Source: a virus. From it: a stretch of DNA of 26,277 nt. The stretch spans positions 1-26,277 of IMG/VR virus record IMGVR_UViG_3300027847_001842; one strand, given 5' to 3'. Both the position numbers and the translations under genes were made by a program. Positions 8,912 through 22,837 of this stretch are shown piece by piece; position 1 is the first letter of the stretch; every line of letters begins with the position of its first letter. The notes beneath the pieces were generated by a model. That model saw only the letters and a program-made list of their open reading frames with translations. It had not been told where the DNA came from and searched no databases.

Positions 8912-8991
8912 AAATCGTCCATGTTCCCTTATTCAGCGTAAAGGCAAACAATTATTTTTTCATTCCAATAAATTAATAACCTAAAAACTAA

Positions 8992-9013
8992 AAGCGCCCT
9001 TGGAGGGGCGCTT
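8992..9013 (-). terminator. GC-rich terminator, mainly leftward
   Basis: AAGCGCCC (8992-8999) pairs perfectly with GGGCGCTT (9006-9013) across TTGGAG. Read leftward it is followed by TTTTAGTTTTTAG, a usable U-tract; read rightward it has few Ts. It would end transcripts from the leftward remnants at 9038-9858. Confidence 0.65.
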
Positions 9014-9037
9014 AAAACATATACACCAATGGTAAAG

Positions 9038-9272
9038 TTAACAAATATTAATAGGATTATCTATGGTTTTGGTACTTAAATCATTCGTTCGTAAATCAAA
9101 TTCATAACTTACCACTACATCATTAGCTTCAATTCTTATTAAATCTCCCACTTTTACTAATCTGTCATCAACATGAAACAAGAAAAGCTGCCATTGCTGA
9201 CAGCTCGTCTAATTTGGCCCCTATTGTTTTATTATCGAACCAATTCAAAACAAAGAAAATAGGGGGCAGAAA
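9038..9272 (-). pseudogene. Frameshifted remnant of an unknown leftward gene
   Basis: Two leftward frames read as protein-like and join end to end. The upstream frame (9272 down to about 9200) gives NWFDNKTIGAKLDELS; the downstream frame (9208 to 9038) gives a stretch including HVDDRLVKVGDLIRIEANDV and ending NPINIC. They are one base apart in phase and overlap near 9200-9208. Neither has an ATG in a sensible place. The composition is much more protein-like than expected for non-coding A/T-rich DNA. I recognise no family. A short TTG-started gene for the second half cannot be excluded. Confidence 0.4.
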
Positions 9273-9304
9273 TTATATCAATATAGAAATAGTATAATAA
9301 CATC

Positions 9305-9546
9305 TGTCACCAAAAAGGGTGACACATCGATTAAGGAGGGTGACACGTAGTGACAGTTGGTGACATATAATTTTCTATCTGTCACTCTTCTAAATGATTA
9401 GTAAACAAAGAGTTATGAAGTATTGGTGACAGATGACATATAATATATACTATAAAATATATAAGGTATATACTCCTCAAAACACTGATAATAAGGGGTA
9501 ATAGAGTGAAAAAAAGTTTTTCTGATATTATCTGTCACCTGTCACC
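9305..9546. repeat. Array of TGTCACC / GGTGACA boxes
   Basis: The heptamer or a near match occurs in both orientations at 9305-9311, 9318-9324 (an inverted pair six bases apart), 9339-9345, 9350-9355 (partial), 9359-9365, 9380-9386, 9425-9431, 9433-9438 (partial), 9533-9539 and 9540-9546. Two copies are followed by the same ACATATAAT stretch. No gene covers it. It looks like a cluster of protein-binding sites around an A/T-rich core (9440-9480), as in operators or replication origins. Confidence 0.6.
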
Positions 9547-9566
9547 AAATTGGAAAAGTACAACTA

Positions 9567-9719
9567 TCACCACACCTGAATCCCCCAACCCCTAACCTCC
9601 TTGTCCAGCTCTTTAGCATCACCAACAACATCATCGAGGCTTGACCAGAACTTATGACTATGGTTTTTGATTTTGGTATGGACGAGTTCATGTAGTATCA
9701 CATAGTCAATACAGTTATT
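9567..9719 (-). pseudogene. C-terminal remnant of a YgjP-like (DUF45) metallopeptidase
   Basis: Reading leftward from 9719 the frame gives IDYVILHELVHTKIKNHSHK followed by FW and about 25 more residues to a TGA at 9567. HELVH is the HExxH zinc motif, and NHSxxFW is the downstream third-ligand motif typical of YgjP/DUF45 metallopeptidases. Only about 50 residues remain of a domain that normally exceeds 200, and no ATG precedes it. GTG at 9699-9701 could start a 44-residue product but would keep only the helix carrying the zinc site. The upstream edge coincides with the stop of the ribbon-helix-helix gene, as expected at a deletion or recombination joint. Family call by motif; truncation seen directly. 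Confidence 0.7.
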
Positions 9720-9858
9720 TTAGTATTCTTTTCAAAGAGACTCGCACGTAGGAAGATATCTTTCTATCATCTTTTTTGGCTGCTTCTTCTATTTTTTTGT
9801 ATAGTTCTTGGTCAACTATAACTTGGATAGCCTTATACTTATTAGGAAATAATTTCAT
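9715..9858 (-). CDS. Small ribbon-helix-helix (CopG/Arc-like) protein
   Basis: A 47-residue leftward product from ATG at 9858. After a short lead, YKAIQVIVDQELYKKIEEAA has the strand then helix A pattern of ribbon-helix-helix DNA-binding proteins, and RKISSYVRVSLKRIL gives helix B with the usual S-x-YVR turn. Such proteins act as dimeric repressors or antitoxins. The frame is open 18 codons further upstream, but that extension would be a hydrophobic segment untypical of the family. The gene ends within the metallopeptidase remnant. No toxin gene is seen beside it, so an antitoxin role cannot be claimed. Confidence 0.6.
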   Translation of the reverse strand: MKLFPNKYKAIQVIVDQELYKKIEEAAKKDDRKISSYVRVSLKRILK

Positions 9859-11566: not shown

Positions 11567-12109
11567 ATGATAGTAGTAACAGGATCGGCCAGAACAGGAA
11601 CTTCTATGATCATGCAAACACTGGTCAAGCTTGGATATAAGCCTGTCTCTCCGAAGTTCAGCAATGTCCATGACAATATAAGAGGGTACAACCCCAAAGG
11701 ATTCTATGATATTGAAGATATCAATGACATTGAGAAATTGACAGATGAGTCCGGCGAAGTGGTGAAGATATTTGGCAGTTGCCTTGATAGGATCAACTTT
11801 GAGATAGTAGACAAGTTGATTATGGTCTTAAAGAGCGCGAAGGAAGCAGTGGCAAGTAGCATACCTGTTTTTAAAGCAATGGGAGAAGATGTCGAAGGCC
11901 AAGAGTTAGATATCTACATGGGAAATTATAAACTCATCCTTGACTTCATTGATCAAAACCCATCAATCCCTGTTCTTGGTATCGAGTACAGTATGATGGT
12001 AGAAGATCCTGAAAATATAATTAAAGAAATTGCAAGGTTCTTAGGTTGTAACACTAATCCAATTGAGGCCATTAACAATATAAACACAGAGGAATTATGC
12101 CCGCATTAA
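11567..12109 (+). CDS. P-loop sulfotransferase-like protein
   Basis: A 180-residue protein beginning IVVTGSARTGTSMIMQTLVK. GSxRTGTS is the phosphosulfate-binding P-loop variant seen in sulfotransferase-fold proteins, here at the very N-terminus as in many phage homologues. The C-terminal part has VLGIEYSMMVEDPENIIKEI, matching the conserved region in which the family reads Y-x-x-(L/M)-x-x-D-P before the last helices (VARFLG-like: IARFLGC). About 180 residues is short for a full sulfotransferase, so it may act as a minimal enzyme or a P-loop ATPase-like factor. The ATG follows the preceding stop with no gap, indicating translational coupling. Substrate and virion role unknown. Confidence 0.6.
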   Translation: MIVVTGSARTGTSMIMQTLVKLGYKPVSPKFSNVHDNIRGYNPKGFYDIEDINDIEKLTDESGEVVKIFGSCLDRINFEIVDKLIMVLKSAKEAVASSIPVFKAMGEDVEGQELDIYMGNYKLILDFIDQNPSIPVLGIEYSMMVEDPENIIKEIARFLGCNTNPIEAINNINTEELCPH

Positions 12110-14570: not shown

Positions 14571-14621
14571 AAGCAAGTTTAACAGCTTCAAAGTAAAAGT
14601 TAGCAGGATTGTAAACAAGAT

Positions 14622-14696
14622 TAGTAACAGTAGTAACATTTAGTAACAGTAGTAACATTTAGTAACACCTGTTACCAATGTTACCAATTGTTACTA
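14622..14696. repeat. Helix-phased TAGTAACA array with inverted TGTTACCA copies
   Basis: TAGTAACA begins at 14622, 14631, 14641, 14650 and 14660 (steps of 9 or 10 bases; two perfect 19-base units plus a half unit). It is followed by TGTTACCA at 14670 and 14679 and TGTTACTA at 14689. The two halves can fold on each other, and the array ends 20 bases before the next gene's ATG. It may bind a protein on one DNA face or form an RNA hairpin. Confidence 0.7.
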
Positions 14697-18870: not shown

Positions 18871-19461
18871 TTAATGTTCCATGAGGGCTTTCATTTCTTT
18901 CATTTCTTTCATTTCTTTCAATTTTCTTTCAATTTTCTTTTCATTGATTACATAGTGAAAACTCAATGAAATATGGTTGGTGAGGCTTTTGTGATTACGA
19001 GTATTGTCCAAATCAAACTGTGTGGCAAACTCGACAGAGAAGTCGCTAAAAATTAGAAGGTAGATAGCTTGTCTTTCGCTAAGATACTGTGCCACAAAAA
19101 ATTCCAATAAAGGCATTCTGGATGGGCTGACCTTCTTTGCATCAAAAGTAAGTTGCTGGTAAATGTGTTGAATGTCCTGTAACGAGATTCCGAAATTCCG
19201 TAAATCACGGATTAGCAGCAACCAAACTAAGTCAATGAAAGAGAACAGCCGCCAGCCTTTTCCCTTGGCCCCTCGTTCAGCATCAAACAAACCACCTTTC
19301 TCCCAAGAGTTCAAGATGCGATAAGAAAAGGATCTGAGTTCATCCCTCAGTTTAATATCCCTTTCATTCAGTTTGCTGCGGGCATCTTCATGTGTAGCAA
19401 ACCATTGAATGTATCTGTCCTTAAAATTATCCTCTCGTAAAATCTGTTCTTCCTGGGCCAT
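18871..19461 (-). CDS. MerR-like DNA-binding regulator
   Basis: A 196-residue leftward product from ATG at 19461. Residues about 45-100 fit a MerR winged helix: FSYRILNSWEKGGLFDAERG, then KGKGWRLFSFIDLVWLLLIR and DLRNFGISLQDIQHIYQQL, i.e. recognition wing (WRLFS-x-x-D) followed by the LRxxGISLxxI helix. The normal N-terminal first helix is preceded by about 40 charged residues. The rest is a helical, mostly hydrophobic effector or dimer region without the metal-binding Cys pattern of classic MerR. The C-terminus ends in an EMK repeat coded by a nine-base microsatellite. A dyad with nested palindrome lies 83 bases upstream and is a likely operator. Candidate phage regulator, or partition or replication protein. 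Confidence 0.65.
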   Translation of the reverse strand: MAQEEQILREDNFKDRYIQWFATHEDARSKLNERDIKLRDELRSFSYRILNSWEKGGLFDAERGAKGKGWRLFSFIDLVWLLLIRDLRNFGISLQDIQHIYQQLTFDAKKVSPSRMPLLEFFVAQYLSERQAIYLLIFSDFSVEFATQFDLDNTRNHKSLTNHISLSFHYVINEKKIERKLKEMKEMKEMKALMEH

Positions 19462-19543
19462 CGAAACTTACCATTTGGTAATATTTAGTAAAAGTAAGCA
19501 ATTCTCATCAGAATTGTTAGAATCAATAGAGGGTTAGCTTGTA

Positions 19544-19593
19544 AAACTTGTATGTTCTTGTATACAAGCATAAACACAAGAACATACAAGTTT
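19544..19593. promoter_or_regulatory. 18-base perfect inverted repeat with nested palindrome
   Basis: AAACTTGTATGTTCTTGT (19544-19561) and its exact complement (19576-19593) flank a 14-base spacer. CTTGTATACAAG (19558-19569) is a perfect palindrome overlapping the left arm, and CTTGTAT occurs twice on the left arm side. A strong candidate operator for the MerR-like regulator, or part of an origin. Confidence 0.7.
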
Positions 19594-19650
19594 AAAGAAA
19601 GGTAAGGTCCATTCTAAAGTCCATTGAAATTCAGGTAAAAAGAACGAAAA

Positions 19651-19724
19651 AGAACGTTAATAGAACGTTAATAGAACGTTAATAGAACGTTAATAGAACG
19701 TTAATAGAACGTTAATAGAACGTT
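19651..19724. repeat. Tandem 11-base repeats AGAACGTTAAT
   Basis: Six exact copies start at 19651, 19662, 19673, 19684, 19695 and 19706, and a seventh AGAACGTT at 19717. A degenerate copy precedes them (AGAACGAAAA, 19641). Each contains the palindrome AACGTT. The 11-base step keeps every site on nearly the same face of the helix, as in iteron or protein-polymerisation arrays. Confidence 0.85.
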
Positions 19725-20093
19725 TTCACCACAACAACCATTGATAAAATACTTGTAAAGTAGTTGTTTGGTTGTTTGTAGTGGTTTAGACAACCATAAA
19801 CAACTGAACATCAATAAGGATTTTTGAACAAACACCTATTGAACTTTGATCTTGTAATCAAAGAAAAGACGATATTATCGTCAATCATGAGTAGCTCCTA
19901 ATAGCTTTCATTACTTGCATATTACTTGCAAGCAACTTTTGAAAGTATCATGATGACCACATTTGGGTCATTATGAATAATCCATACGAACATATTATAG
20001 CCTTAATTTCCTAATTTTCCACTTTGGGAATATTGGGAAAGTACCAAAAGGCTCATTTCTTTTGAAAAAGGATACAGGGAATTTTCAGGGAAT

Positions 20094-20218
20094 TTTCAGG
20101 AACTATGTAAACAACTGATATTCAGCTATTAATGCTATGTGTTCAATTGGTGAGAGGAATTTTCAGGAACTTTCAGGAACTATGTAAACAACTGATATTC
20201 AGCTATTAATGCTATGTG
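20094..20218. repeat. Perfect 48-base direct repeat
   Basis: Bases 20094-20141 recur identically at 20171-20218, 77 bases apart, and similarity continues after each copy to GAGGAATTTTCA. Short copies of GGAATTTTCAGG also precede the first (20078-20100). Confidence 0.85.
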
Positions 20219-20298
20219 CTTAATAGTTAGAGGAATTTTCAAGTAACCTTAAAAAGAGTTTTTAAACCCCAAAACCTCAGAGGAGTTATTTTTTTCCA

Positions 20299-20376
20299 GG
20301 CAAAGCGGGCAAGAAAAAAGGCAAAGCGGGCAAGAAAAAAGGCAAAGCGGGCAAGAAAAAAGGCAAAGCGGGCAAA
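20299..20376. repeat. 21-base tandem repeat
   Basis: Three full copies (20299-20319, 20320-20340, 20341-20361) of GGCAAAGCGGGCAAG followed by six As, plus a partial fourth to 20376. Rightward it could encode GKAGKKK repeats ending GKGMGGF and TAG, but no start codon precedes it in frame. It lies 100 bases beyond the terL stop. Confidence 0.8.
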
Positions 20377-20475
20377 GGTATGGGGGGCTTTTAGGGGCAT
20401 CAAGGGGGGAGTACTCCCTAATTTAATTGCTGATAGTCTTTTTGAGCGTCGCCGAGGGTGGATTTTTAGCGGTTG

Positions 20476-22473
20476 TTAGTAATCTGCGTAAGACCCATTA
20501 GAAACAGAGACTATTCCTTCCTTCCTTTTCTCTACCAAAACGCAGGGGCGCTCGTTGTAACAAAGCCAATAGCCAATCATTGTAGGGATAAGGACGTCGT
20601 CATGTTGCCCCTCTACGTGTCCCATCCTATTGCGGCCACCACGACTGGGGTCTTTGTGTTCATAAAAAGATGCCTCATAGTAAACCTCTTCATCAAACTC
20701 CAGTAGGCCGTCCTCTCTTAGAAGCTTAAGCATAAAGTTTGATATCCTTGTCTTGTTGTCGTTGGTAGTCCACCAACCATACTTGGTAGGGAGGCCTGCC
20801 CTGACTTGGTCTACAGGGGTTCGGGTATACATATTCTTAACCACCTTACCTATCTCATCGATAAAGGTCTCAAAGTGCTGGCCTTCGGTATCTCCTTGGT
20901 TCTGCCCTGTGAAGTTGGCTTCAATAGCCAATAAGGCATCACCATAGATGTGGGCTAACTGGGCAGCCTTCCAAGCCATGATGTCTTGATCGATCCTTCC
21001 CTTCCATGAAAACACCCTTTGTGGAACCCCCCCTTTTGTCATTGGTGCACGGTCAAAGCCATTGATAGTACTCCAGTCGGCAGTCTTTGATTTACCTCCT
21101 ATGTCAACGGTGACGATGTATCTATTTTGGTAAATAAAATCTTCTGGTGGCGCGGGCTTATTAGGCATATCCCATATTCTCAAATTACCATGCTCCTGTT
21201 TTAATGGGAATATGTTCTCAAGTATTTCTTTACCTGTTCCTTCCGGATAAATCTCTCCAATAAAAGGGGGAACCCTCATAGTCTTCTTAATTTTCATAGA
21301 GTACTGTGGCGGGAAGAACAGCCTTCCGGAGGAAGCGAAGGCCTCCTCTGCCGAGGATGGGAACTCTGAGAACATCCGCCATGTATCATTGTGGTAGTTC
21401 TTAAGTTTGACGCGATACCACTTAATCCCTTCCAGTGTGGCCCCCATACCCCATACAGACTTCTCATACTCGGTCATTGAATCAATAAGAGCCTTGGCCT
21501 CCTCAACATCTCCGAATTCTATTTGGTATAGTTCAATTAAGAACCATGGAATAAACAAGGGGGTGTATGGGTTCTTTTTTTGAGTAGCGGCCATATATTC
21601 TCGATGGAAGAAACCACCAGATCCTTTAGCGGTAGACTCAAGCGCAAGAAAGGAATAAGGCTCTTCCAGTATCGATCCGGTGATTGTTTGCATTAAGTCT
21701 TCTGGCTTCCTAGTCTCAGAGGACTGCCACGAAGCTATCTCTGTGCAATGAGCCATCTTGATGTTTTTCACCCGGAGGCCTTCAGGCTTAACCATAGACC
21801 CCACAGAAATCACACATCGTCTATCCTTAATGATTCTTGTTTTGGTTGATCCTTCAAAAGACTCAAGGACATAATCTTTTAATTCATAGTTGTCAAGCAG
21901 GGTGTTATACATACTCCTGACGGTGATCGATTGTTCTTCGGTATCCCCGACAATTACACTATGCCAGTTGATTTTATGTATCAGTTGTATCCACGCCATG
22001 TAGATTTCTATAAGTGTAGACCCTCCCCACTGTCTTGCTTTGACAAGGATAATACGTATGGGCATTTCTGCAATACGCATCTTTTCCAATTCGGCCAATA
22101 GAATCCTTTGGGCATACCGCAGTATGAAGGGAACAACAGGCAAAGTCCCGCCAATGTCTGTTTTCGGTTCTATCATTGTTGTGAGGCCAGCCCAGAATTC
22201 AAAGTCCTCGGCAAACCGGCAGGCGTTCATTTCTTGTATACCGGTGTCTAAGGGAATATCTAGATCATGGCAGTAGTGATCTAGGGACTCATGTTGAGCG
22301 AAAGGGGAGCTTTCAAGAGATTTAGGCAGGTAAATTGGTATTGTATTGGCAGATACGCGGAAAGGGAACCTTTCTATCAGGCTTCCTTCACCTGTTCCAG
22401 GTACGTAGGGGTCGGTAAAAACCTTGTTTCTCTTATCATTTTCTTTAAAGTACTCATGGTAATTGCTGTTCAT
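20476..22473 (-). CDS. terL: Terminase large subunit
   Basis: The packaging motor: an N-terminal ATPase drives DNA through the portal and a C-terminal RNase H-fold nuclease cuts genome units. Numbered from ATG at 22473 (665 aa): Walker A-like KARQWGGST at about 145-153 (the Arg/Gln/Ser-Thr variant usual in terminases), Walker B MAHCTEIA near 240-247 with the catalytic Glu at 245. The nuclease acids are in VTVDIGGKSKTADWST (Asp 457), LLAIEANFTG (Glu 518) and GQHDDVLIP (Asp 625/626). All key residues are present. The frame is open 38 codons further upstream, but that part overlaps the divergent gene and reads as low-quality hydrophobic sequence; MNSNYHEYF behind an A/T-rich leader is the better start. 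It is transcribed against portal, scaffold and capsid genes. Confidence 0.95.
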   Translation of the reverse strand: MNSNYHEYFKENDKRNKVFTDPYVPGTGEGSLIERFPFRVSANTIPIYLPKSLESSPFAQHESLDHYCHDLDIPLDTGIQEMNACRFAEDFEFWAGLTTMIEPKTDIGGTLPVVPFILRYAQRILLAELEKMRIAEMPIRIILVKARQWGGSTLIEIYMAWIQLIHKINWHSVIVGDTEEQSITVRSMYNTLLDNYELKDYVLESFEGSTKTRIIKDRRCVISVGSMVKPEGLRVKNIKMAHCTEIASWQSSETRKPEDLMQTITGSILEEPYSFLALESTAKGSGGFFHREYMAATQKKNPYTPLFIPWFLIELYQIEFGDVEEAKALIDSMTEYEKSVWGMGATLEGIKWYRVKLKNYHNDTWRMFSEFPSSAEEAFASSGRLFFPPQYSMKIKKTMRVPPFIGEIYPEGTGKEILENIFPLKQEHGNLRIWDMPNKPAPPEDFIYQNRYIVTVDIGGKSKTADWSTINGFDRAPMTKGGVPQRVFSWKGRIDQDIMAWKAAQLAHIYGDALLAIEANFTGQNQGDTEGQHFETFIDEIGKVVKNMYTRTPVDQVRAGLPTKYGWWTTNDNKTRISNFMLKLLREDGLLEFDEEVYYEASFYEHKDPSRGGRNRMGHVEGQHDDVLIPTMIGYWLCYNERPCVLVEKRKEGIVSVSNGSYADY

Positions 22474-22501
22474 CGATATAAAATTACTATTTTTGGAATT
22501 A

Positions 22502-22837
22502 ATGGAGCTAAAGGCAGGGCTGTTCATAGAAGGCCAAGAGAAAAAAAAAGAGATAATTGAGTTTATCAAAGCTCTGCGCCAACACAATATTTTATCAAAA
22601 AAGAGAGCTAAAGAAGCTGGCCACTATATAGAAAGGGCTTTTCAAGTGGCATTTGTCCAAGATACACAGGAAAGGTATTTATTGGACGATGATCTGATAA
22701 TAATAAACAATATATTAAACCAAGTGGCTAGAGGAAAGAGGAAGGTGATGTTTGAGCTTACTGAAGATGGTTTTTGTCTTCGTGAAGTATTTACAGGGGA
22801 GGAGTGGCAATTGATGGTAGGAGCAAAACCAAGTTAA
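22502..22837 (+). CDS. Small helical protein divergent from terL, unknown
   Basis: A 111-residue product from ATG at 22502 (MELKAGLFIEGQEKKKEIIE); the frame opens earlier, but that start would lie within terL. It is mostly helical and charged, with VARGKRKVMFELTEDGFCLR as a likely beta hairpin near the end. The starts of this gene and terL are only 28 bases apart on opposite strands, and TATTTTTG (22488-22495) in that gap fits a -7 element, which would give an almost leaderless message. By position it could be a small terminase or head accessory protein, but no motif shows it. Confidence 0.55.
   Translation: MELKAGLFIEGQEKKKEIIEFIKALRQHNILSKKRAKEAGHYIERAFQVAFVQDTQERYLLDDDLIIINNILNQVARGKRKVMFELTEDGFCLREVFTGEEWQLMVGAKPS

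Follow-up and report, generated by a model that had tools for sequence, protein, structure and literature searches.

Xis of phage lambda, Apl of phage 186 and the MerR-like protein BldC bind direct repeats at a spacing of about one turn of the helix, and they do so as head-to-tail filaments (PMC7498355, PMC5859096, PMC11963761). Apl is both a directionality factor (RDF) and a regulator of lysis and lysogeny; at att it has five sites 10-11 bp apart, and at pR-pL operators 1-7 (PMC7498355). BldC of Streptomyces is a MerR-type winged helix of 68 residues without extra domains, whose operators consist of direct repeats in variable number, such as the 9-bp repeats at whiI (PMC5859096). The non-coding block described here resembles both systems and differs from each of them.

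The block belongs to an uncultured phage of the Bacteroidota type. The window, meaning the whole stretch of DNA that was analysed, is the IMG/VR record IMGVR_UViG_3300027847_001842, with 26,277 bases. Since this record is classed as linear, it is probably a fragment; complete related phages measure about 64-68 kb, against 26 kb for the window. It encodes a long polyvalent protein with an LPD38 domain, a P22-type portal, an SU10-type major capsid protein and the terminase large subunit (terL). The nearest named relatives are the Bacteroides phages BF1-TP2, BKO1-TP3 and BS-TP4, whose terL homologues are 34-35% identical (tblastn) and whose capsid proteins are 24-27% identical. Public records label the terL genes of these three phages (L003, L004 and L005) as 'tail spike protein'. 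A sulfotransferase-like gene (11567-12109, PF13469, E=2e-6) occurs amid the structural genes of the window.

The block itself, at 19462-20475, lies 3' of terL and 5' of a MerR-like gene, with both genes pointing leftward, and is AT-rich (GC 35% against 42% for the record). Its features and the two genes that flank it are the following, with the strand where one applies:

18871-19461, minus strand: gene for a MerR-like winged-helix protein of 196 aa (Pfam MerR_1, PF13411, E=3e-10, above the curated cut-off)
19468-19481: small dyad TTACCATTTGGTAA, just before the start codon of the MerR-like gene
19544-19561 and 19576-19593: arms of an inverted repeat, 18/18 complementary, 14-nt spacer; candidate operator dyad
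19557-19568: nested 12-bp palindrome CTTGTATACAAG, inside the 18-bp inverted repeat
19651-19724: 11-bp array, head to tail, of six complete AGAACGTTAAT and a seventh AGAACGTT; 100% identical, 6.7 copies
19910-19935: ATTACTTGCA twice in tandem (copies at 19910 and 19921) with an overlapping palindrome, within the ACTTGYA motif set
20076-20229: 77-bp tandem duplication, copies 84% alike, with a perfect 48-bp core at 20094-20141 and 20171-20218
20298-20375: 21-bp tandem repeat, 3.7 copies, its period a multiple of 3, with an open plus-strand frame lacking a start codon
20373-20403, minus strand: Bacteroidota-type promoter-like match TTG-N20-TACCTTTG, oriented toward the MerR-like gene; a leader of about 0.9 kb would result
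20407-20418: palindrome GGGAGTACTCCC, at the GC-richer end of the block
20476-22587, minus strand: terL (phrog_2, E=4.6e-10), the upstream neighbour, whose 3' end abuts the block

An earlier note on this DNA had listed an 18-base inverted repeat with a nested palindrome, seven 11-base tandem repeats, a perfect 48-base direct repeat, a 21-base tandem repeat and smaller dyads in a gene-free block between these two genes. All of these repeats are present, the 48-base one as part of the 77-bp duplication, and both flanking genes were correctly named. The absence of genes also holds: apart from a 54-aa frame that crosses the 21-bp repeats, no reading frame in the block reaches 50 aa, and a hidden pseudogene was sought and rejected, as no protein of the relatives matched. 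An Rfam search of the block gave no match. When the block was shuffled 200 times with its dinucleotides preserved, the longest inverted-repeat arm reached at most 12 (18 observed), the longest exact direct repeat 15 (63 observed) and the top TRF score 53 (277 observed). The motif ACTTGYA occurs five times where 0.33 copies are expected and CTTGTAT half-sites four times where 0.18 are expected, counts that none of 1000 shuffles reached for motifs that were picked post hoc. The shortness of the repeats and the divergence of the 77-bp copies argue against an assembly artefact.

The perfect 18-bp dyad sits 82 bp upstream of the start codon of the MerR-like gene, and the 11-bp array, a candidate helically phased protein-binding array, about 190-260 bp upstream of it. 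As RNA of the leader strand, the dyad makes a strong hairpin (z=-6.75 for the 339-nt fold); the distal part of the block shows no excess of folding. The small dyad adjoining the start codon is possibly an autoregulatory site. Across the whole window, the minus strand has two matches to the general Bacteroidota-type consensus, and the promoter-like match at the far end is one of them. Sigma-70-type promoters are not in excess in the block. Compared with classical MerR systems, in which a dyad operator occupies a long -35/-10 spacer, the locus shares the winged-helix domain. Dyads are present, with no convincing promoter around them.

Set beside the Apl operators, the block is likewise a candidate phage control region with tandem direct repeats of about one helix turn (10-11 bp), and its 11-bp period, 6.7 copies and 100% identity agree with the spacing in RDF/Xis-type arrays. 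Unlike Apl, which is a small protein with sites at att and pR-pL, the array of the window has neither an integrase with an att site alongside in this fragment nor divergent early promoters, and the protein next to it is larger, its binding being predicted. The likeness to BldC lies in the pairing of a MerR-type winged helix with direct repeats; the window differs in its candidate perfect 11-mer and in a protein of 196 aa instead of a stand-alone winged helix of about 68 residues (PMC5859096). Because BldC is so short and typical RDFs are small, against 196 aa here and 265-342 aa in the relatives, their binding mode need not carry over to this protein.

The reading that we prefer, with a probability of roughly 0.4, is that the block is non-coding DNA, specific to this lineage, from which the MerR-like gene is controlled. 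It is the most economical one on two grounds: the block lies directly 5' of a DNA-binding gene, and the units of its cleanest array recur about once per turn of the helix. Position and strand, repeats beyond chance, enriched motifs, dyads upstream of some relatives and the promoter-like site at the far end all speak for it; against it stand the facts that no relative shares the block and that the dyads of the relatives mostly fall within the shuffled range. Under such a model, a winged-helix protein, in the simplest case that of the MerR-like gene, would bind the 11-bp repeats cooperatively and head to tail, one monomer per helical turn, and might bind the 18-bp dyad as well. The resulting filament or bend would repress or tune the leftward transcription of the MerR-like gene, and perhaps read-through from terL too. 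The dyad and the CTTGTAT/ACTTGYA sites could form a further site, bound by the same regulator or by a different one, and transcription from the match at 20403-20373 (minus strand) together with the dyad hairpin may produce a structured leader. The distal 77-bp and 21-bp repeats would most simply be slippage duplications without a required role; both are probably passengers, the 21-bp repeat a passenger or a remnant. In kind, the block is ordinary: its repeats are real, and it is most likely a control region of the adjacent gene.

The MerR-like protein is 26-27% identical to its relatives L191, L192 and L193. Homology in the family spans residues 1 to about 176, and the relatives, with 265-342 aa, continue into a conserved C-terminal region that is missing from the window copy; it was not found in another frame, and the gene looks shortened. 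A minisatellite at 18888-18945 (CTTTCATTT, 5.9 copies) ends the frame as a KEMKEMKEM tail. A structure model from the single sequence (pLDDT 44) was too poor for a fold search. Relatives are rare in Bacteroidota, with 3 of 395 sampled genomes found by single sequence and 5 of 395 by profile, and a profile search of viral contigs found none.

Furthermore, six of the seven cellular relatives (L191, L192, L193, L205, L206 and L207) have a large serine recombinase directly downstream, on the same strand, with 519-575 residues and at most one small predicted ORF in between. A domain scan of four of these recombinases showed Resolvase, Recombinase and zinc-ribbon domains, and the remaining two have the same resolvase-type motif at their start. 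The seventh relative (L208) matches in the winged helix alone and lacks a recombinase neighbour. Judged by gene neighbourhood, the family looks like a partner of serine recombinases, and the genes of the six loci are candidate regulators or directionality factors of recombinase elements. A search of literature titles and abstracts yielded no description of such a pairing. The window gene belongs to the same protein family as these six, but it differs from them in having neither a recombinase nor the C-terminal domain, and in being preceded by a 1-kb repeat block where theirs are preceded by 20-244 bp. The three closest relatives have no 11-bp array. Dyads do occur just upstream of their genes: TAAACCTTAC/GTAAGGTTTA 1 bp before the start in L191, 21 nt at 86% in L192 and 24 nt at 75% in L193. 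As a feature of the family, the upstream dyad was rejected, being suggestive in these three only and overall not above shuffles. One conceivable history is capture by the phage of a recombinase partner that then lost its recombinase and C-terminal domain, and that now forms a head-to-tail nucleoprotein filament on the phased 11-bp array beside terL to regulate phage genes; we hold this history to be improbable.

Conservation was followed across 80 viral and 80 genomic loci, the latter mostly Bacteroidales, fetched with a terL alignment. In these loci and the window (161 in all), the gap 3' of terL has a median of 19 bp and a 95th percentile of 329 bp, and its maximum, 1014 bp, is that of the window. 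In the four closest relatives (terL 43-44% identical), the next gene, of about 126 codons and resembling the Holliday-junction resolvase family phrog_190, begins 4-10 bp after terL. Neither the block, nor its motifs, nor its length recurs at the 160 other terL loci, and a search of 49 related phage records, many of them fragments, did not find the MerR-like gene. Searches of viral contigs found no match to a 22-base array pattern and, with single-sequence queries, no close relative of terL or of the MerR-like protein; the 16-base dyad arm hit 19 contigs, about the chance number for the collection size by a rough estimate. The whole block matched no phage or plasmid. The 2.28 Mb of related loci contain only two intergenic arrays with a period of 9-13 and four or more copies; both have a period of 9, and none of 11 bp was seen. 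Several related loci have arrays of 7- and 14-bp units (AACCGAC, ACTAACC, AGTTAGG) next to the portal gene or a short way past terL (L011 12101-12159; L147 10099-10145; L154 2923-2973). As far as these collections show, the block is private to one phage lineage. Conservation in related phages, which the earlier note had proposed as a check, is therefore poor.

The strongest rival is that the block is neutral, decaying intergenic DNA whose tandem repeats grew by replication slippage and serve no function, because nothing in it is conserved. The block is missing from every relative examined and lies in an AT-rich region (GC 35% against 42%), other slippage-type repeats occur nearby (18888-18945 and 14621-14667), the 77-bp copies have drifted to 84% and the MerR-like gene appears shortened. 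Slippage leaves the perfect dyad unexplained, however, and since six 11-mers and both 18-bp arms are perfect, they must be recent or maintained. Idle DNA of 1 kb is also rarely kept by phages, and we regard neutrality as unlikely, if well worth keeping in mind. The same absence from relatives counts strongly against a packaging site conserved alongside terL. The earlier note had placed packaging among its candidates, and the position of the block between terL and a winged-helix gene, with a GC-rich palindrome at 20407-20418, would suit a pac or cos site in which the MerR-like protein acted as a small terminase of the Nu1 type. Since neither the block and its motifs nor the MerR-like gene turned up in the relatives, a packaging site conserved with terL is unlikely; the block is unique among the 161 terL neighbourhoods, and the protein matches no terminase small subunit family. 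Packaging is thus very improbable.

Like packaging, each of the remaining explanations needs a partner that is missing from the window, which is probably only part of the genome. The earlier note's general idea of a control site remains plausible as protein-bound DNA, but its two other specific candidates, a replication origin and a partition site, find no support. Like iteron origins and R1-type parC, the block has short direct repeats in series; unlike them, it comes without an initiator, a DnaA box or a par motor in the window. An origin with the 11-mers as initiator-binding sites beside an AT-rich stretch would fit directly repeated short units in AT-rich DNA, yet no initiator or other replication gene was recognised in the 26-kb window, and in BF1-TP2 and BKO1-TP3 the annotated replication initiation protein gene lies about 27-31 kb from terL. 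GC skew, another check proposed in the earlier note, follows gene orientation. An origin seems to us a poor prospect. For a centromere of the parC/tubC type, the units of R1-type parC have the size of the 11-bp repeats, and the window has a ribbon-helix-helix-like ORF, weakly matched. Against this, no ParM/ParA/TubZ-like motor gene was recognised among the window ORFs scanned, the array is not set around a promoter of par genes and roughly one in three of the related records searched has an integrase, so that partition is hardly to be expected here. The missing partners weaken origin and partition without ending them because the window is a 26-kb linear fragment. The recombinases beside six of seven cellular relatives, and the habit of RDFs of binding direct repeats one turn apart, would instead favour an attP or recombinase site with the MerR-like protein as an Xis/RDF-type directionality factor, and the 50-bp dyad matches a serine-recombinase site in size. 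Perfect arms are unusual for such sites, though, and the window contains no serine or tyrosine recombinase gene. A serine-recombinase remnant was also sought in the window and rejected, its matches being at chance level. Across 35 records including the window, a serine recombinase was found in none and a tyrosine integrase match in 11, and in the closest long relative the tyrosine integrase lies about 29 kb from terL. What the family's recombinase link lends to a recombination site, the tyrosine integrases of related phages take away, and we find such a site quite doubtful.

If the control-region reading is true, the locus offers a clean, perfect array for testing head-to-tail binding by MerR-type winged helices, a mode for which few cases have been solved; if it is false, the block is no more than ordinary intergenic DNA private to its lineage. 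Through its link to recombinases, the family also provides candidate regulators of recombination for mobile elements of Bacteroidota.

The window has a second gene-poor stretch, at 8912-9714. Next to it, at 9715-9855 on the minus strand, lies the ribbon-helix-helix-like ORF of 46 aa, with weak NikA-like and CopG_antitoxin matches. Inside the gene-poor stretch, over 240 bp (9305-9545), there are nine TGTCAC half-sites in both orientations, where 0.24 are expected and 1000 shuffles gave at most 4; they are likely another operator cluster.
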